A stretch of DNA of 57,439 nt from a virus, in IMG/VR virus record IMGVR_UViG_3300023110_000040, positions 1 through 57,439 of that record; one strand, given 5' to 3'. The translations under genes and the position numbers were made by a program. Shown one piece after another: positions 10,816 through 43,031 of the stretch. Within the stretch, counting starts at the first letter, position 1; each line of letters opens with the position of its first letter. The notes below the pieces were generated by a model, which was not told where the DNA came from, made no database searches, and saw only the letters and a program-made list of their open reading frames with translations.

Positions 10816-10848
10816 TGTGTGTGTTCCTTTCTGTGTAACGATAATTCT

Positions 10849-10876
10849 ATTATATCAGGATTAGAGAGAATGTCAA
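10849..10876 (-). promoter_or_regulatory. Early promoter of the modification operon
   Basis: TTGACA, 16-base spacer, perfect TATAAT on the minus strand. It ends inside the last codons of the upstream gene and drives 10815 leftwards, probably through dexA. Confidence 0.88.
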
Positions 10877-11154
10877 CTATAATTGCGCACATAAACGTCA
10901 AAATGTGTCGCATTTTCTGCAGGAGTGTCGTGGGCCCAAGAATTCTCACGAGGACCACGAGGACGAATACGAAGACCTTGCGTATTCTGTTTACCATAGT
11001 AACTCAAAGTGCCATATAGTTTACGAGCACGAGTGATGTATCCATTACGCTCAACAAGCAAAGCTTTCAATTCAGCGATCGCAGGATCGTCAAGAGACTT
11101 TACCGTGAAACGATAATCAAGAGAAGAACGGTTTTTGTAAGTTACGTATGCCAT
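10873..11154 (-). CDS. Hypothetical protein
   Basis: 93 residues, basic, unrecognised. Its ATG overlaps the stop of the upstream 44-residue gene (TAATG), and its end overlaps the next early promoter. Confidence 0.65.
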   Translation of the reverse strand: MAYVTYKNRSSLDYRFTVKSLDDPAIAELKALLVERNGYITRARKLYGTLSYYGKQNTQGLRIRPRGPRENSWAHDTPAENATHFDVYVRNYS

Positions 11155-20562: not shown

Positions 20563-21151
20563 ATTTTAATCCATTATACATATCAATTGGCGCATCCCAT
20601 TCAGCAGGGTTTGCTATACTGTTTACTATTCCATTTTTAAATGTGTTGTGTGGAATCTTTTCGTGTACAAGAAACCTATCAATGCCTGGATACTTTCTCA
20701 TGAAGTAATCCTTATTAGATAGAAAGTGTTCCCATACATCATGTTGCTGTCCTGCCGTCCATGTAATTACAGAACTATTTATGTGCACGTCATAGGCATG
20801 CGGAGCCATGTACAGATCATCTTTCCAATAATCTTTAAGTATTGTTAGACCATCCCATGTAATAAACTCAGACGGATCTCTTTTAATATCCATATCTAAA
20901 TCAAAGTAAAGACACTTACCTTCTACAGGAAAGTCTTTACTGAACATAGCAAGCTTATTCCACCAGTATTTTAGTTTTGGTTTTTCAAATACTGGAATAC
21001 ATGGAATAGCTACACCGTAAGTATCGTCTGTATAACAATAGAATTTTGCTAATGGAAAATACTTTACTAATTGTTCTGTTAATCTGTTTACGTGTTCATA
21101 GTTATACTTATCACCGTGTTTTACGAATATAATGTTTAACAATCCTGCCAT
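20537..21151 (-). CDS. GT-A glycosyltransferase-like protein
   Basis: 204 residues: a hydrophobic N-terminal strand (LNIIFVKHGDKY), the KYWWNKLAMFSKDFP segment, then YFDLDMDI with a DxD-type metal motif near residue 82, and an acceptor-side NSSVITW. Small size and layout match short phage or bacterial GT-A transferases that recognise a nucleotide sugar. Overlaps the neighbouring methyltransferase-like and radical-SAM genes. Confidence 0.68.
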   Translation of the reverse strand: MAGLLNIIFVKHGDKYNYEHVNRLTEQLVKYFPLAKFYCYTDDTYGVAIPCIPVFEKPKLKYWWNKLAMFSKDFPVEGKCLYFDLDMDIKRDPSEFITWDGLTILKDYWKDDLYMAPHAYDVHINSSVITWTAGQQHDVWEHFLSNKDYFMRKYPGIDRFLVHEKIPHNTFKNGIVNSIANPAEWDAPIDMYNGLKYELQRTDL

Positions 21152-22212
21152 CTGAATCCTCGTATGCCATTCATAATTTCAATTTTACGATATAACTCAT
21201 CGTACATAGACTGATCAAATTCAGACACTAATCCTTGATTGACTGTATCTAATTCTTCTTGTGTTCGAGTAGTTAAATAGTTCATTTCAGGCGGATTAAA
21301 TAATAGATTATAACTTCTAAGTTCATTGTCTCCTATAAACACGTGCGGATTATCAGCATAAAAATCATTGATTTCTTGCATATCAAGTATATTAAAATAA
21401 GATACAGTAGGAACTACTTTCGGGACAATACCAGCTTCTTCGTTGAGCTTTTTAATTGTTTCTAGTGTATTGTTAAAATTAGTTCCACGTATCCATTCAT
21501 ATTTTCTGCCAATATGATCTAGACTCGCTACCATTTCTACTTTTTTAAATTTTTTTAAAGTGTTCATAAATCGTTTTGAAATTAAAGAACAATTTGATGT
21601 AAGCCACACAGTACAATCAGGATTTACTTCTGCTAACTCTTCAAGTATTTTAGCATTTCGTAGATCAGAAAAAGGTTCACCACCTTTAATATGCAATACA
21701 TGCAGATCAGGCAATAAGCTTATAATCTTTTCAATATCAGACTCAGTCAAATTAACATGAGGCTGTTGATGATTACCAAATAAATGATCGATTGTGGCCC
21801 ATTTAGTACTGAAATAACTACTACACATTATACAAGTTTGGTTGCAAATATTGCTTGTAGTAAATTCTAAATAACTAATCTTTCCCGGCTCATATTTTCT
21901 CCATTCTGGATTCAGCCAATAGAATGCTCCAGCGTGGGTGCCATCTTTTTGTTTTATTCTTGAAGCACAATTATCGCATGCAACAGTTCCCATAATACCT
22001 TTTTCTTCAAGCTCTCGTCTTATATGCATATTCAAATCAGAGTAGGGAAAGTCTTCATATTCAGTTGCCGTAGCAATTTTGTATTCTTCTATACTATCAG
22101 TTGCAATAATTTCATTTATGTGTCTAGTGAATACCATGCAACAAGGCTTGAGCCAACCTTGTGGATCAATTACTAACGCATGATCTGGCCATCTACATGC
22201 GGGTATATTCAT
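21136..22212 (-). CDS. Radical SAM protein with N-terminal twitch/SPASM-like cysteines (1)
   Basis: 358 residues. The radical-SAM cluster motif CNQTCIMC (Cys123, Cys127, Cys130) follows TTSNI, and IKGGEPFSD is the SAM-binding GGE motif. Before it lie Cys6, the pair Cys24/Cys25 and Cys79/Cys82, arranged like the auxiliary cluster of twitch/SPASM proteins but placed N-terminally. In the same late operon as two paralogues and the fibre genes. Known relatives modify peptides or proteins; the target here is unknown. Confidence 0.85.
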   Translation of the reverse strand: MNIPACRWPDHALVIDPQGWLKPCCMVFTRHINEIIATDSIEEYKIATATEYEDFPYSDLNMHIRRELEEKGIMGTVACDNCASRIKQKDGTHAGAFYWLNPEWRKYEPGKISYLEFTTSNICNQTCIMCSSYFSTKWATIDHLFGNHQQPHVNLTESDIEKIISLLPDLHVLHIKGGEPFSDLRNAKILEELAEVNPDCTVWLTSNCSLISKRFMNTLKKFKKVEMVASLDHIGRKYEWIRGTNFNNTLETIKKLNEEAGIVPKVVPTVSYFNILDMQEINDFYADNPHVFIGDNELRSYNLLFNPPEMNYLTTRTQEELDTVNQGLVSEFDQSMYDELYRKIEIMNGIRGFRWQDC

Positions 22213-23375
22213 TTCAGTCGCTCAATATATTGACGATACATTTCAATATTTTTAATGCAAATTTGTTCATCAGTACCAAACTCAATCAGAGCATTGTTTA
22301 AATAGTTTCTAAGCTTATCTAAATACTCTGGAGTCTCTTCTTCTACTGCCCAAGGTGCGATATCTTGCGGGGATGTTGTTCCACCCATAGGAGCCAAGAC
22401 ATGATAGGCAAAAGAAAGATTTTTTCTATTACAAAATGATACTATTTTAGGCAAAGTCCACACGTTATCTTTACTAATCACAAATGAACAACCGACATCA
22501 GCAACACCATATGATTGAAGTTCATCTATATGTTTTAAAACCGTTTCTAAATTACCATTTCTTCTTAAATCTTGATATATCTCAGGATCAATTGAATCTA
22601 ATGAAATCGTAAATTCAGTGTTTGGCCTTTGAGCAAATTTTCTTGCGTATCCATTTAAGATACTACCGTTTGTTGTAAATTGAATGCGAAGATTTTCTGG
22701 GTTTTCCTCCTCTACCATCTTAAGAATTTTATGTACTATTCTTTGAGCAAATGGCTCCCCGCCTGTAAAGTTTAATTTATAAACTTCATGTATAATTTCA
22801 CGTAAAGATTCTACGAAAGCATCACCAACTTCTGGATCATCATATATACTTGTAAATCTATGCGCAGTTTCTGGATTCTTCTTTACAAAATCTTCCATAT
22901 GTTGAGAAGAATGATATGGACTGCAGAATTTGCATTTATAATTACAAGTATTTGAAAGTTCTAATTCTATATCCCTTGGAACAGGATGATTTAAGTCTCT
23001 CTCACCACCTACCCAGTCTGCATCTAAACTGCTTGGAGGTTTATCTGCATCGCATTGCTCTTTGCAATACCTGCACCATTCATGCAAATCACCCATCATA
23101 GAAGCTTGACGAATTTCTTCAAAGCCTTCATCATTTTGCCATAGATCTCTTAAGCTGTCTCCTGGTTTCCATCGTGCCTGATTGGTAAAAGGATCTTTTT
23201 CGTAAGGTGTAGTATCTTTATGCTCTCTTACATGGCGCATAACAAAAGGGCAGACCTTTAAATTGCCTTTCTTATTAATATGAATAGCTTGAAAAGGCGC
23301 CCAACAACTTACTGTTTTATATAAAGCTGGTAGTTCGGGTCTTCTATACTTGTTAATTTTATCGACGTATTTCAT
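22209..23375 (-). CDS. Radical SAM protein (2), divergent paralogue
   Basis: 388 residues. The cluster motif is CNYKCKFC (Cys144, Cys148, Cys151) after LELSNT; FTGGEPFAQ is the GGE motif. N-terminal Cys24 and Cys42 and the trio Cys101, Cys104 and Cys108 look like ligands of an auxiliary cluster. It is less similar to the other three than they are to one another, so it may act on a different substrate. Both ends overlap neighbours by four bases. Confidence 0.85.
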   Translation of the reverse strand: MKYVDKINKYRRPELPALYKTVSCWAPFQAIHINKKGNLKVCPFVMRHVREHKDTTPYEKDPFTNQARWKPGDSLRDLWQNDEGFEEIRQASMMGDLHEWCRYCKEQCDADKPPSSLDADWVGGERDLNHPVPRDIELELSNTCNYKCKFCSPYHSSQHMEDFVKKNPETAHRFTSIYDDPEVGDAFVESLREIIHEVYKLNFTGGEPFAQRIVHKILKMVEEENPENLRIQFTTNGSILNGYARKFAQRPNTEFTISLDSIDPEIYQDLRRNGNLETVLKHIDELQSYGVADVGCSFVISKDNVWTLPKIVSFCNRKNLSFAYHVLAPMGGTTSPQDIAPWAVEEETPEYLDKLRNYLNNALIEFGTDEQICIKNIEMYRQYIERLK

Positions 23376-24571
23376 TTATATTCCTTTAAATATGGAGCCA
23401 ACTCATATATGTCTTCGTTATTTTCTCGTGCTACTAAACAAAAATCAATCCATTCAATCATTCTTTTTCTTATTTCCGCAGGAGTTTTAAACGGATCTAT
23501 TGTTGTTTCAACACTCATTACATTGTTTAAATTACTTACATGCAGTTTATCACTTACCCAATATGTGTCTGATCTTTTAGTAAACTTAGATTCTAAATAA
23601 TCAAATAGATTTTTCTTTCCTTCTTCCTGATGTTGTATTGTTAAGAAGTTAGGTGAACAATACTTTGGAAACGTTACAAGGTTCGCCATACTGATACGAG
23701 GAACACCTGGCACATCAATAAAATAATCAATGAGTTCTGGAAGATGCATCCAGTTATAAACCGAAACAGTGGATACTACGATAACATGCCTGCCTGCATA
23801 TTTATGATATCGTTTAATGTTGTTTATTGTTTTTTGAAAATTGCCTCCTCGGATCCAATCATACATTTCATGCACACCGTCAATGCTTGCTTGGACATGA
23901 ACTTCATCGATGCGATGTAGCAACTCAATTACATAATCAGTAACTAACTGAAAATTAGTGCAAATCTCAACACGGCACTTCGGATTCGTTTCAGCAAGCT
24001 TTTTAAGGATAAGAATATTATTTGGATCGGCAAACGGCTCGCCACCTTTAATCGTAAGATGCTGTAGATGTGGTACTAGATCTAATACCTTATCCACATC
24101 TTCTTTCGTCATCTTATACATTTCAGTATGAAACTTGTGGTTCTCATCTCGCCAAGTAAGGCCAGATTCTACAGCCATTTTCTCATATGGCGCCCATTTA
24201 GAACTATACTTACCAGAGCAAGTAACACACATCTGGTTACAAATATTGCTCGTAGTAATTTCCAAAAATCGAATCGGAGTAATTGGCGCGTCTTTATCTT
24301 CTTCATATGTTGGAAAAATAAAGCGATTATAAGAATCGAAACGGGCTATACGACCAGCTTCCCAGTGTACCTTACACACGTTACATTGTTTTGGAAAGTT
24401 ACCTTCTTTAAAATCTTTACGAAGCTTATCATAAACTTCACCATTAAAGAACTCAGTAAGATCAGGAACGTCTTTAATATGAGATATAGCTGTGTTGTCC
24501 CCAGCACAACATAGAACTATTTCGCCAATAGGATTAATTGTTATTCCTGTTTCAGGCACCATGCATTTCAT
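23372..24571 (-). CDS. Radical SAM protein (3)
   Basis: 399 residues with the motif CNQMCVTC (Cys111, Cys115, Cys118), a GGEPFAD motif, and N-terminal Cys3, Cys21/Cys22 and Cys63/Cys66 as an auxiliary-cluster set. Very like proteins 1 and 4 (TTSN, SSKWAPYEKM and the VHVQASIDGVHEMYDWIRGG region). First enzyme gene after the structural genes of the late operon, 17 bases from the preceding gene. Confidence 0.86.
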   Translation of the reverse strand: MKCMVPETGITINPIGEIVLCCAGDNTAISHIKDVPDLTEFFNGEVYDKLRKDFKEGNFPKQCNVCKVHWEAGRIARFDSYNRFIFPTYEEDKDAPITPIRFLEITTSNICNQMCVTCSGKYSSKWAPYEKMAVESGLTWRDENHKFHTEMYKMTKEDVDKVLDLVPHLQHLTIKGGEPFADPNNILILKKLAETNPKCRVEICTNFQLVTDYVIELLHRIDEVHVQASIDGVHEMYDWIRGGNFQKTINNIKRYHKYAGRHVIVVSTVSVYNWMHLPELIDYFIDVPGVPRISMANLVTFPKYCSPNFLTIQHQEEGKKNLFDYLESKFTKRSDTYWVSDKLHVSNLNNVMSVETTIDPFKTPAEIRKRMIEWIDFCLVARENNEDIYELAPYLKEYK

Positions 24572-27865: not shown

Positions 27866-28177
27866 ATGGCTGAAGACAACGGTTACCATCCAGCGGATAC
27901 AAACGGCGACGGTGTTGTAGATGATATCGAACGCGAAATGTATCTTGAATTTAAAAGAAAAGAATTAGAAGACAAGGACGCACAGCGTGATGCAATGCGT
28001 GGGATGACTTGGTTTGCTTTATTCGGCATGCTACTTTATCCATTTGCAATTGTCTTAACATCATATTTTGGACTAGATACTGCAGCAGGAATCGTTGGTG
28101 ATATTGCACCGACATATTTTGTTGCTATTTCTGCTTTGGTTGCAGCATTCTTTGGTGCTGACGCTATCCGTAAGTAG
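27866..28177 (+). CDS. EF-hand-like motif plus two transmembrane segments
   Basis: 103 residues. DTNGDGVVDDIE (about 9-20) is a calcium-loop-like DxNxDG sequence, then a charged helix (YLEFKRKELEDKDAQRDAM), then two hydrophobic spans at about 47-67 and 79-97. Similar proteins occur in aquatic T4-like phages; the role is unknown, and a holin-like or membrane-anchoring role is possible. Ribosome site TAGGAG. Late. Confidence 0.75.
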   Translation: MAEDNGYHPADTNGDGVVDDIEREMYLEFKRKELEDKDAQRDAMRGMTWFALFGMLLYPFAIVLTSYFGLDTAAGIVGDIAPTYFVAISALVAAFFGADAIRK

Positions 28178-28188
28178 ATAAATCAAAA

Positions 28189-28216
28189 GGGAGGCCTTCC
28201 TAGGTGCCTCCCTTTC
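28189..28216. terminator. Bidirectional intrinsic terminator
   Basis: GGGAGGC, ten-base loop, GCCTCCC then TTTCT on the plus strand; on the minus strand the same stem is followed by TTTTGATTT. It ends the EF-hand gene transcript and the minus-strand RNA described next. Confidence 0.85.
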
Positions 28217-28580
28217 TATCTGTTTGTTTCGATGTACAGCACCCGGCTAGCTTTCCATTCGGTACTAGCGACTCACCGACCATCCAAAAGCTGCAGACTT
28301 ATGGATGGATTTTTTTGGGTACGTTCGCGTAATTGCAGGCTTTCCCCGTGCGCCATAAGTAACGAGGACTGAGTTCTTACTGCCTGGTCGAGTTTTCCTC
28401 AGTCCTCGCTAATTCTGGTTTTCACGTCACCGGTATTTCACGGGCGGTATATTCACCAGAATGTTCTTGCCCGACCTTGTTTACTCACGACGCGCAGGCT
28501 ACGTCAGGCAATATATCTCTTTAATCCATTTTTGCCACTTTAGCGGCTGAGGGTTTGGAACCTCTCAATATTGCCTTGAT
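28189..28580 (-). ncRNA. Structured non-coding RNA of about 390 nt, family unknown
   Basis: Between the strong minus promoter at 28586-28614 and the bidirectional terminator lie about 390 bases without a gene, richer in GC than the surroundings and full of inverted repeats. Predicted stems: 28568-28575 with 28507-28514 (8 pairs); 28503-28511 with 28467-28475 (9 pairs including one G-U); 28455-28462 with 28412-28419 (8); 28398-28408 with 28363-28373 (11, perfect); 28303-28308 with 28280-28285 (6); 28265-28269 with 28246-28250 (5). The first two share bases and exclude each other. I compared it by eye with tmRNA and RNase P RNA and saw no match. Confidence 0.75.
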
Positions 28581-28585
28581 ACTAT

Positions 28586-28614
28586 TAATATATACTTTTT
28601 CTAGTAAATGTCAA
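28586..28614 (-). promoter_or_regulatory. Early promoter of the structured RNA
   Basis: TTGACA on the minus strand (28609-28614) with TATATT or ATATTA 16-17 bases on. The predicted start near 28579 puts the first stem within a few bases of the 5' end. Confidence 0.8.
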
Positions 28615-28634
28615 CCCTTTTATTGAATTTTTTT

Positions 28635-28835
28635 TCAAATTTCTTCTACCGTTACCTTATACAACTTACCGTTGAAGTCTTCCATAGTAATGGTTTTCTT
28701 CGTTGACAGCATGTAACCATCGATAGGATGCAAATCCATTTTTACTCTACCAACCTGAGTAATCTTATTTTCTGGTTTATCATTGTTGAAAGCGGTACTG
28801 ATCACGTGTGCGATATAGTCGCAATAAGCCAACAT
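28635..28835 (-). CDS. Small hypothetical early protein
   Basis: 66 residues, mixed alpha and beta, unrecognised. Last gene of the minus early unit that begins at the 29304 promoter. Confidence 0.62.
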   Translation of the reverse strand: MLAYCDYIAHVISTAFNNDKPENKITQVGRVKMDLHPIDGYMLSTKKTITMEDFNGKLYKVTVEEI

Positions 28836-30041: not shown

Positions 30042-30068
30042 ATGCATTTCCTTTCATTTGATATATCT

Positions 30069-30096
30069 ATTATATCACAGTGGAAAGTAATGTCAA
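30069..30096 (-). promoter_or_regulatory. Early promoter of the metallopeptidase gene
   Basis: TTGACA, 16 bases, TATAAT on the minus strand. Confidence 0.88.
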
Positions 30097-30131
30097 CAAG
30101 AACGTTTCTTTTGAAATCAATGGCTTAGAAA

Positions 30132-30665: not shown

Positions 30666-30673
30666 TATTTATA
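30666..30673 (-). promoter_or_regulatory. Late promoter of the SNase gene
   Basis: Exact TATAAATA on the minus strand, about 50 bases before the ATG, overlapping the end of the radical-SAM gene. Confidence 0.6.
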
Positions 30674-31859
30674 GTTCTTTTAGTTGTGGATGCAGTTCAT
30701 ATATGTTTATGTTTCTTTTTAAATTCATAAACGAAGCAAACATGTGCATTCGACTGCGCCAATTGTTATAATCTTCTATGGTCGGTATGATCGGATCGTT
30801 ACTCATAAATTCTTCATTTTTAATAAACATGTGCCTATGCAAATTATCTGGCCATTTCTTATAGTTATTTCGCCAATCTTCTAGTTCTTTAAAAGTTAGA
30901 ATTCTTTGAGGTGCAGCGTATTTTGGTTCGTGAACCCATCCCATCTGTGTAAAGCTTACTTGAGTGTCGTTTACTCTTTGATTCCAGTAATCAAGCACTT
31001 CATTGTAGTTCCACATATTAAAAATATTTAAGCGATGATTGATATTAATCCATCCAGTAATTCCAGATGATTTCCATCTTTCAATATTTTCTATTGTTTG
31101 CTCAAAAGGAGTAGATCTTACCCATTCGTATGTTTTACCAATACCATCCATTGAAACGGATATCTTTACTGGATTTGAAGCTTTAGATAGTAAGTCGATA
31201 TATCGCTGTGGAACCTTTGACATGTTTGTTGTCATATCAATCAAGCACTTATCATTTACTTTTACGAGTTCTTCTAAGATGTAATAGTTGTTATTGTCAG
31301 CGAAAGGCTCACCGCCTTTTACAACGATCTGTTCTAAGTTAGGAAGTATAGGTAAGATCTTTTCAATGTCTGAATCCGACATTCTGTATAACGAAGCACC
31401 AAAGTCATTGAAGCCTGGTTCACCGGGATTCTTCCAGGATTCTAAGTCAAGTGACATTTCAGTTGCTTCCTGCTCTAACCCAATCCATTTAGAACTATAA
31501 TAACTTGAACATGTCACGCAGGTTTGATTGCATAGATTTGAAGTTGTAAATTCTAGAAAGCGTATCGTCTTATCTGTTGGAATACTCGCTCTACGAGATT
31601 CACCTTTTACATTTGCGTGAAACCATGAATTCTTCATGCCAAGTTTAGCGTTGTTTAAACAGTATCCACAAACTTTACTCACCAAAGGCTCTTTATCTTG
31701 ACGCAGAGATTCAAGATCTGAATGGTTGCCCCATAATTCAGCAATATTATCTACATTACTAATATGGTTGAAAGACCAAGTTCTTTCTGCTGCACAGCAT
31801 ATAGAAAGATTACCGTCTGGTTGAATTGTTAGTGAATTGTGAGGAGCAGTACAATACAT
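30669..31859 (-). CDS. Radical SAM protein (4), separate from the operon
   Basis: 396 residues; motif CNQTCVTC (Cys110, Cys114, Cys117), GGEPFAD, and N-terminal Cys3, Cys21/Cys22 and Cys64/Cys67. Close paralogue of proteins 1 and 3 but 6 kb from the others and the only one with its own upstream region. It lies divergently from the secreted-protein cluster, across a region with two palindromes. Its substrate could be in either neighbouring cluster. Confidence 0.85.
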   Translation of the reverse strand: MYCTAPHNSLTIQPDGNLSICCAAERTWSFNHISNVDNIAELWGNHSDLESLRQDKEPLVSKVCGYCLNNAKLGMKNSWFHANVKGESRRASIPTDKTIRFLEFTTSNLCNQTCVTCSSYYSSKWIGLEQEATEMSLDLESWKNPGEPGFNDFGASLYRMSDSDIEKILPILPNLEQIVVKGGEPFADNNNYYILEELVKVNDKCLIDMTTNMSKVPQRYIDLLSKASNPVKISVSMDGIGKTYEWVRSTPFEQTIENIERWKSSGITGWININHRLNIFNMWNYNEVLDYWNQRVNDTQVSFTQMGWVHEPKYAAPQRILTFKELEDWRNNYKKWPDNLHRHMFIKNEEFMSNDPIIPTIEDYNNWRSRMHMFASFMNLKRNINIYELHPQLKEL

Positions 31860-38752: not shown

Positions 38753-38778
38753 ACTTTTTCTCCGTGTATATATCTGTA

Positions 38779-38806
38779 AATATATTACATAATGAAGAAA
38801 TGTCAA
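38779..38806 (-). promoter_or_regulatory. Early promoter
   Basis: TTGACA, 16 bases, TATATT on the minus strand; drives 38752 and the GT25 gene. Confidence 0.83.
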
Positions 38807-38809
38807 CCC

Positions 38810-41498: not shown

Positions 41499-41574
41499 TG
41501 GTGCCCCCACACGGACTCGAACCGCGGACCCACAGATTACAAATCTGTTGCTCTACCAGCTGAGCTATAAGGGC
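41499..41574 (-). tRNA. tRNA-Thr (anticodon TGT)
   Basis: 76 nt including an encoded CCA. Acceptor stem GCCCTTA with TGGGGGC (two G-U pairs), D arm AGCTCAGCTGG, anticodon stem ACAGA-TTTGTAA-TCTGT giving TGT, T arm GGTTCGAGTCC. Confidence 0.95.
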
Positions 41575-41579
41575 ATTAT

Positions 41580-41714
41580 CTATTTATTAGACTGGCGATA
41601 TTTATACAACTTTACATAGTATGCAAACGACCTAGGGTAGTTTCGAGGATTCGGTAAAGTGATTCCTCGACTACCCCAGTACTGTAAAAATAAAACTATT
41701 TGTTTGTCTGTCAT
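41580..41714 (-). CDS. Small hypothetical protein (44 aa) between tRNAs
   Basis: MTDKQIVLFLQYWGSRG and LPNPRNYPRSFAYYVKLYKY; aromatic, basic. No strong ribosome site, but the composition looks coding. A long hairpin (about 41634-41676) overlaps it. Confidence 0.5.
   Translation of the reverse strand: MTDKQIVLFLQYWGSRGITLPNPRNYPRSFAYYVKLYKYRQSNK
41599..41606 (-). promoter_or_regulatory. Possible late promoter ahead of tRNA-Thr
   Basis: Exact TATAAATA on the minus strand about 25 bases before the tRNA; it lies inside the 44-residue reading frame so could be coincidence. Confidence 0.4.
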
Positions 41715-41721
41715 AATAAAC

Positions 41722-41798
41722 TGGCCTGCGCTGAGGGATTCGAACCCCCGACCTAGTGCTTAGAAGGCACTTGCTCTATCCAGCTGAGCTAAGCGCAG
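41722..41798 (-). tRNA. tRNA-Arg (anticodon TCT)
   Basis: 77 nt including an encoded CCA. Acceptor CTGCGCT with AGCGCAG (seven Watson-Crick pairs), D arm AGCTCAGCTGG, anticodon stem AGTGC-CTTCTAA-GCACT giving TCT (reads AGA/AGG), T arm GGGTTCGAATCCC. AGA codons are frequent in the phage genes. Confidence 0.96.
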
Positions 41799-42600: not shown

Positions 42601-42626
42601 GTTTGATTCCTTCTTATTATTATATT

Positions 42627-42654
42627 AATATAGTACTTTCTTGGAGAATGTCAA
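42627..42654 (-). promoter_or_regulatory. Early promoter
   Basis: TTGACA, 16 bases, TATATT in the shared GTACTATATTA context; drives the small membrane and exported genes leftwards. Confidence 0.82.
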
Positions 42655-43031
42655 CCCTTTCTTTGAAATTTTTTCACAAATTCTAAAAGAATTTTCTCCG
42701 ATCGTTCTCTGGCTTCTTGTTCCCACCAACAAGTGTCATAGTTGTAACCCTTGTCAAGAAGCTCTCCAAGATTATCATACATGAACTGCTTCACATGAAC
42801 CATTTCGTGGGCTATACTAGTATATATCTGGCTTATGTTCTTGTTCTTCTTAGAAATCAAAATTAAATAGTTATCTTCATCAATATCAATACACAGACCA
42901 GACTTGTCGTTTACGATCTTATCTTCTGCAACAATCTCAATACTCTTTGGCCAAGCTGGCAAATTCTCGCAGCAAAAACGAGTAAAGTGAGTTGTGAGTT
43001 TTGGATCTAATCCTTTTACCTTAACTTTCAT
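42651..43031 (-). CDS. Zinc metallopeptidase-type protein, second copy
   Basis: 126 residues. AHEMVHVKQF supplies HExxH (His75, Glu76, His79), and a later WEQEARERSE helix may complete the site. Same HEM-x-HVKQ core as the 29616 protein, so the two are paralogues. Unknown substrate. Confidence 0.74.
   Translation of the reverse strand: MKVKVKGLDPKLTTHFTRFCCENLPAWPKSIEIVAEDKIVNDKSGLCIDIDEDNYLILISKKNKNISQIYTSIAHEMVHVKQFMYDNLGELLDKGYNYDTCWWEQEARERSEKILLEFVKKFQRKG

Follow-up and report, generated by a model that had tools for sequence, protein, structure and literature searches.

A promoter-to-terminator RNA gene in a T4-like phage, predicted to be a string of structured modules that are shuffled between phages

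According to our analysis, the minus strand of a 57.4-kb virus record is predicted to encode a GC-rich, non-coding, structured RNA of about 395 nt that runs from a promoter to a terminator and comprises five successive structured modules, A, D, E, F-M (with two pseudoknots), and K. An earlier sequence-only reading overlooked what comparison with uncultured phages points to, namely, that the RNA is built from separately mobile modules in a row rather than as one fold. We propose, with a probability of about 0.5, that it represents a trans-acting, self-associating mosaic RNA gene whose modules are shuffled between phages.

The RNA gene and its surroundings

The window, by which we mean the whole stretch of 57,439 nucleotides that was analyzed, belongs to a T4-like phage according to strong PHROG matches for DNA polymerase, clamp loader, helicase, an SbcC-like subunit, and topoisomerase II. 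The RNA gene lies between a plus-strand open reading frame (ORF) ending at 28177 and a minus-strand ORF with its stop at 28635, and it holds no ORF longer than 46 amino acids. Its minus strand folds with a minimum free energy of −141.9 kcal/mol (z = −5.7; none of 100 shuffles as good), while the plus strand reaches z = −3.6. Together with the promoter and the terminator listed in Table 1, these features bear out the discrete minus-strand gene for a structured RNA that the sequence-only reading had described, as does its GC content of 48.6% versus 38.2% for the window (99.5th percentile among 395-nt stretches).

TABLE 1 Predicted features of the RNA gene and its modules
Feature	Coordinates	Strand	Description
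Sigma-70-type promoter, TTGACA-16-TATATT	28587..28614	−	11/12 consensus bases
Module A	28468..28578 (111 nt)	−	12 distinct sequences, 14 covarying pairs; covariance model match of 125 bits
Module A, P1	28568-28576/28506-28514	−	Strong covariation
Module A, pseudoknot 1	28556-28559/28525-28528	−	UCCA/UGGA, GUCA/UGAC, or GUCG/CGAC, depending on the phage
Module A, hairpin P3	28543-28547/28534-28538	−	From module A alignment
Module A, hairpin P4	28502-28505/28489-28492	−	From module A alignment
Module A, pseudoknot 2	28495-28499/28469-28473	−	From module A alignment
Module D	28412..28462	−	Hairpin bearing three GUGAA motifs; sequence almost constant; detected elsewhere by a scan of the collection
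Module E	28362..28409	−	Long stem, conserved purine-rich internal loop, 9-nt loop CGAYCAGGN
Module F	28317..28356	−	H-type pseudoknot (GNG/CNC) with inserted hairpin; 12 sequences
Module M	28220..28309	−	P1 hairpin with palindromic loop CUGCAG, CGGU/ACCG-CUAG/CUAG pseudoknot, 3′ hairpin
Module K	28185..28216	−	Terminator hairpin; 10-nt loop ACCUAGGAAG with palindrome CCUAGG (28199-28204)
Intrinsic terminator hairpin, GAAAGGGAGGC-ACCTAGGAAG-GCCTCCCTTTT	28216-28185	−	From sequence

The start site is predicted at about 28580. An extended form of the promoter, GTTGACATT-N14-TATATTA, occurs seven times in the window at up to three mismatches, against 1.75 expected (0/100 shuffles), and the copy belonging to the RNA gene has zero mismatches. 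Other minus-strand copies are found at 10848-10877, 30068-30097, 38778-38807, and 42626-42655. These copies are possibly phage early promoters; of the strong early promoter claimed before, the near-consensus strength is seen directly, while the early timing is probable. Similarly, the terminator hairpin is evident on the minus strand, and it may well be bidirectional, as had been asserted, since it also faces the convergent gene ending at 28177.

Searches with Rfam in 28100-28700 gave no match at gathering score and, at relaxed thresholds, merely weak matches far under those scores; none of the modules reaches a gathering score either. The covariance models of GOLLD and ROOL had no match in this interval up to E = 10. 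No tmRNA, including permuted forms with a tRNA-like domain and tag ORF, was detected in the window by ARAGORN and Rfam, and no match to known self-cleaving ribozyme or intron models was found in the RNA, so that, like the earlier reading, which could not assign it to any of these, we find that it is not a tmRNA, an RNase P RNA, or an intron.

Elsewhere in the window, three consecutive genes (21136-24571) and a separate one (30669-31859) are of the radical SAM type, as deduced from PHROG matches for 22209-23375, 23372-24571, and 30669-31859 and from similar cysteine motifs for 21136-22212. They lie near sugar-nucleotide and glycosyltransferase-like genes and are unusual cargo in a T4-like phage. 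The genes for tRNA-Thr and tRNA-Arg at 41499-41798 flank a strong hairpin (GGGGTAGTCGAGGAATC...GAATCCTCGAAACTACCC) that has no similarity to the RNA modules.

Covariation within the modules

Compensatory base changes were found in modules A, E, F, and M, the result that the sequence-only reading had proposed to look for in related phages. In module A, whose alignment of 12 distinct sequences requires one single-base gap in total, 91.7% of the paired positions form standard pairs, double changes occur at 14 of the 27 pairs, and the covariation score is 0.444. When the 3′ partners were slid by 1 to 3 columns as a control, only 27 to 41% were paired and the scores fell to 0.040 to 0.080. Pseudoknot 2 is consistent in every sequence but nearly invariant, and covariation by itself therefore lends it little support. 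G-U cells are more frequent than A-C cells (27 versus 5), which places the functional RNA on the minus strand.

The previous suggestion of a 5′ switch based on two competing helices does not survive this comparison. One of them, P1, is conserved and covaries, whereas the competitor (28503-28511/28467-28475), although present in the window sequence, has no double-change pair among the 12 sequences, scores under shuffles, and has two of its pairs broken in 7 of the 12. We therefore rejected a riboswitch or 5′ RNA switch, the second alternative helix being neither conserved nor covarying. A possible likeness of P4 and pseudoknot 2 to the pistol ribozyme was considered and dropped as well, there being no Rfam match.

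In module E, 6 of 15 pairs show double changes, a count that comes from just five sequences. Module F is 98.3% paired with 5 double-change pairs in its 12 sequences. Module M is 94.6% paired with 6 double-change pairs in 28 distinct sequences, in an alignment fitted to the structure; MAFFT, applied independently to eight sequences, gave 4. Module D has a variant in L199 in which an inner stem C-G pair is replaced by U-A. A pairing between F and M (GUACCC/GGGUGC) was considered and dropped, because the pseudoknot of F itself accounts for these bases and covaries with them.

Occurrence and order of the modules in other phages

Through the proteins flanking the RNA, 160 related loci were fetched (loci are designated by L numbers here). 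By blastn, the RNA has one 99.8% copy (L082) and one 88% copy (L083), in which the differences are clustered; L004 and L005 are 70% similar over the first 180 nt only, and L107 is 90% similar over one hairpin only. Since the similarity in the last four is patchy, separate modules were suspected, and pattern searches among viral contigs then retrieved modules A, D, E, and M separately. Dozens of contigs from uncultured phages contain the modules, whose structures are clearly conserved, and covariance models retrieve their members at very low E-values across many contigs. L173, L201, L210 to L212, and most later scan matches were set aside as chance, judged by eye or by covariance models.

Neither the whole RNA nor modules A, F-M-K, and G had a structural match in 50,697 named phage records, a collection from which the closest records to the window may be missing. 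Searched against the named phages, the region (by megablast) and the RNA (by distant blastn) returned promoter-like or short chance matches only, A, F-M-K, and G returned nothing when each was searched in the distant mode, and T4-group isolates gave no structural match to any module tested. When 84,980 bacterial and archaeal genomes were scanned for module A, 34 matches in unrelated taxa were obtained; as some tens are estimated by chance for this pattern, we treat A as absent from the genomes scanned. We found no description of this RNA in the open-access full-text literature, a statement that holds for that literature alone.

The order of the modules varies. The window, L082, and L083 share promoter-A-D-E-F-M-K, and L164 has A-D-F-M-K. 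In other loci, the promoter is followed by E-A and then other RNAs or tRNAs (L165, L168, L200), by a hairpin and D-A-tRNA (L166, L171, L180, with M-K in addition in L171), by A-tRNA (L175, L177), by A with tRNA-Gly downstream (L004, L005, the latter also with module G), by A alone and a terminator (L170), or by G carrying D and a terminator (L187), while L199 combines promoter, G containing a divergent D, tRNA-Pro, and E-M-K. Association with phage tRNA islands is seen in relatives (L165, L171, L175, L177, L209); the tRNA genes of the window itself lie away from the RNA, at 41.5 kb. In L163, L169, and L178, the order is promoter-A-ribosome site-ORF, and A constitutes the 5′ untranslated region (UTR) of a small gene, the ribosome binding site lying a few nucleotides 3′ of the module; this is the sole likely cis-regulatory placement of A that we saw.

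The 3′ unit F-M-K is found in 3′ UTRs, often that of a gp32-like single-stranded DNA-binding protein gene, as well as behind other genes and tRNAs, and in many phages it sits directly between stop codon and terminator. F-M-K or M-K lies 3′ of the gp32-like gene in L207, L312, L313, L327, L345, L347, and L364, where the assignment relies on PHROG 224 (E down to 1e-114) in L312, L313, and L347 and on similar sequence or an acidic tail in the other four. In L196, D is placed between a stop codon and a terminator, i.e., in a 3′ UTR. Many copies of F-M-K and D have no adjacent promoter.

D can also be nested, since it occupies the apical loop of module G in L107, while L110, which lacks D, has AUCUC-UUAU-GAGAU in place of the whole hairpin; this comparison indicates that D within G is an insertion. 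Phages thus appear to treat RNA domains much as genomes treat protein domains, shuffling them. No record yielded more than one copy of A (23 records), D (23 records), or M (43 records), a lower bound given that most records are fragments; with the same proviso, 14 of the 23 phage records have a single match to the covariance model of A and none has two.

Module G itself, which lies outside the window, measures about 190 nt and looks like a structured RNA closed by a long-range stem (L187:5680-5900, L107:5200-5420, L182, L183); it has its own promoter and terminator in L187 and a second G-like copy in L183. D is within its apical loop in many phages; it is not in L110 and L005. Another recurrent module, CUCUGUUUUCACAUGCAC...GUGCAG...AGAG, occurs among tRNAs (L165:6150-6245, L175:11849-11940, L168:7300-7450), and its apical part is swapped for inserts that differ by phage, once a tRNA-like sequence. 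A segment of about 68 nt, UAGGUAAGGGAUAACAACGGCAG...GGUUGCCCUUA, is shared by phages that otherwise differ, in which it lies between tRNA genes (L165:6444-6510, L177:4499-4566). Relatives also carry a separate permuted tmRNA gene of alphaproteobacterial type (L003:4193-4502, L004:4489-4911), which hints at the hosts of these phages.

Palindromic loops and self-association

Hairpin K comes after M, and while its stem varies, its loop always bears CCUAGG or CUGCAG: one or the other of these 6-nt palindromes, the only two seen in K, was present in all 25 K loops examined (6 distinct loops). The M loop carries CUGCAG, GGGCCC, GGUACC, CCUUAAGG, or the shorter GGCC and GCGC; a 6-nt palindrome is found in 12 of 23 sequences versus 24% by chance, a modest excess among related sequences that are not independent. 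No single RNA has CUGCAG in its M loop and its K loop at once (8:0 versus 4:11; Fisher p = 0.0013, with no correction made for relatedness). The palindromes in the two loops suggest self-association, and those of K in particular suggest homodimeric kissing as in GOLLD and ROOL. In OLE and GOLLD, palindrome switching has been taken as evidence of intermolecular pairing (PMC12286853).

Proposed mode of action and alternative explanations

In the mechanism that we propose, a host-type and probably early promoter would give rise to a stable trans-acting non-coding RNA, the transcript being made of separately folding modules in series, A-D-E-F-M-K. Recombination between phages would lead to the gain, loss, and reordering of modules, which relatives attach to tRNA operons, to the 3′ UTR of the gp32-like gene, and to 5′ UTRs, the carrier transcript presumably supplying promoter and abundance. 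F-M-K would probably join two RNA copies via palindromic kissing loops into a dimer or oligomer, so that the RNA would work like the phage RNAs GOLLD and ROOL, conceivably in host takeover or counter-defence. The presence of at most one copy per searched record, within very different carrier transcripts, is gene-like rather than what one gene's cis element would show and favors action in trans.

A cis stabilizer would likewise be compatible with modules that lie at the ends of mRNAs and operons. Pseudoknots are typical exonuclease blocks, and knots at transcript ends could protect tRNA operons and abundant mRNAs, with 5′ module A, which in several phages starts about 10 nt or less from the −10 box, blocking RNase E entry and F-M-K, between stop codon and terminator, blocking 3′-5′ exonucleases; the window RNA would then be a leftover or minimal carrier. 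We consider this explanation unlikely, if worth serious attention, since many transcripts would gain from more than the single copy seen per record, D also sits in the loop of another RNA, the window RNA has no coding cargo, and the conservation of module cores, for example GUAGCCUGCG and GAGGAAAACYCGAYCAGG, greatly exceeds what blocking requires. Slightly less likely still is a set of decoys or sponges, in which each module binds one host factor (an RNase, a tRNA-targeting nuclease, an RNA-binding protein, or a signal molecule of a defense system) and each phage gathers the set that its hosts require. The occurrence of one module of each kind, in sets that differ between phages and are colocated with tRNAs, and conserved loops that look like binding sites agree with it; however, Rfam shows no likeness to a known aptamer or decoy, and the idea is more a possible purpose of a trans-acting mosaic RNA than a separate anatomy.

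That the elements are DNA-level recombination cassettes, like the promoter-stem-loop cassettes of T4-type phages, with incidental RNA folding, would account for a promoter plus hairpin shuffled among genome contexts and for palindromes that are also DNA palindromes. Instead, the pseudoknot covariation and the G-U asymmetry in module A indicate selection on the RNA of one strand, and many copies move without a promoter, which makes this reading very improbable. Chance structure or decayed tRNA genes, suggested by the frequent tRNA neighbors in relatives, we regard as scarcely credible, given covariation far above the controls and the very low E-values at which the covariance models recover members in many contigs.

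Returning to the trans-acting mosaic RNA, a tentative extension, which we would sooner bet against than for, is that phages of this group draw on a shared pool of RNA domains that fold on their own (among them A, D, E, F-M-K, and G). These would be recombined, joined in series, and even nested in one another's loops, the products forming RNA-only homo-oligomers via orthogonal palindromic kissing loops and acting in trans during infection. If true, this would constitute a combinatorial system of RNA domains, much like the shuffling of domains in proteins.

Comparison with known systems

Phage T4 makes two stable non-tRNA species, RNAs C and D, from its tRNA cluster together with the phage tRNAs. 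They are among the closest known counterparts of the RNA studied here; T4-group isolates gave no structural match to the modules tested. Promoter-stem-loop (PeSL) cassettes have reportedly been proposed in T4-type phages as a mobile promoter plus stem-loop in variable regions. In contrast, the mobile unit here is a covarying RNA domain that is often promoterless, as in the F-M-K and D copies, and we therefore did not assign it to the PeSL cassettes, in which promoter and stem-loop move together.

GOLLD is an ornate, pseudoknotted, phage-encoded RNA, often near tRNA islands and sometimes with tRNAs inside it, that forms a homo-oligomer through palindromic kissing loops (PMC12286853). The window RNA shares with it phage encoding, pseudoknots, tRNA association in relatives, and palindromic loops, the oligomer being a prediction here, but it measures about 395 nt versus more than 800, has no Rfam match, and consists of separately mobile modules that are also found in UTRs. 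ROOL, encoded by phages and prophages close to tRNA islands, has several pseudoknots as well as kissing loops in one fold of about 660 nt (PMC12286853). The window RNA differs from it in having no match to its covariance model and in being a shuffled string rather than a single fold.

The modules show RNA domains moving among non-coding RNAs, tRNA operons, and the ends of mRNAs, and because they can be aligned, they offer a way into the purpose of large phage RNAs such as GOLLD and ROOL. Owing to the palindrome switch, a hairpin of about 32 nt would suffice for a direct test of self-association. Judging from the features compared here, the nearest kind is that of the large phage RNAs near tRNA islands, from which the present RNA appears to differ in anatomy and mobility.
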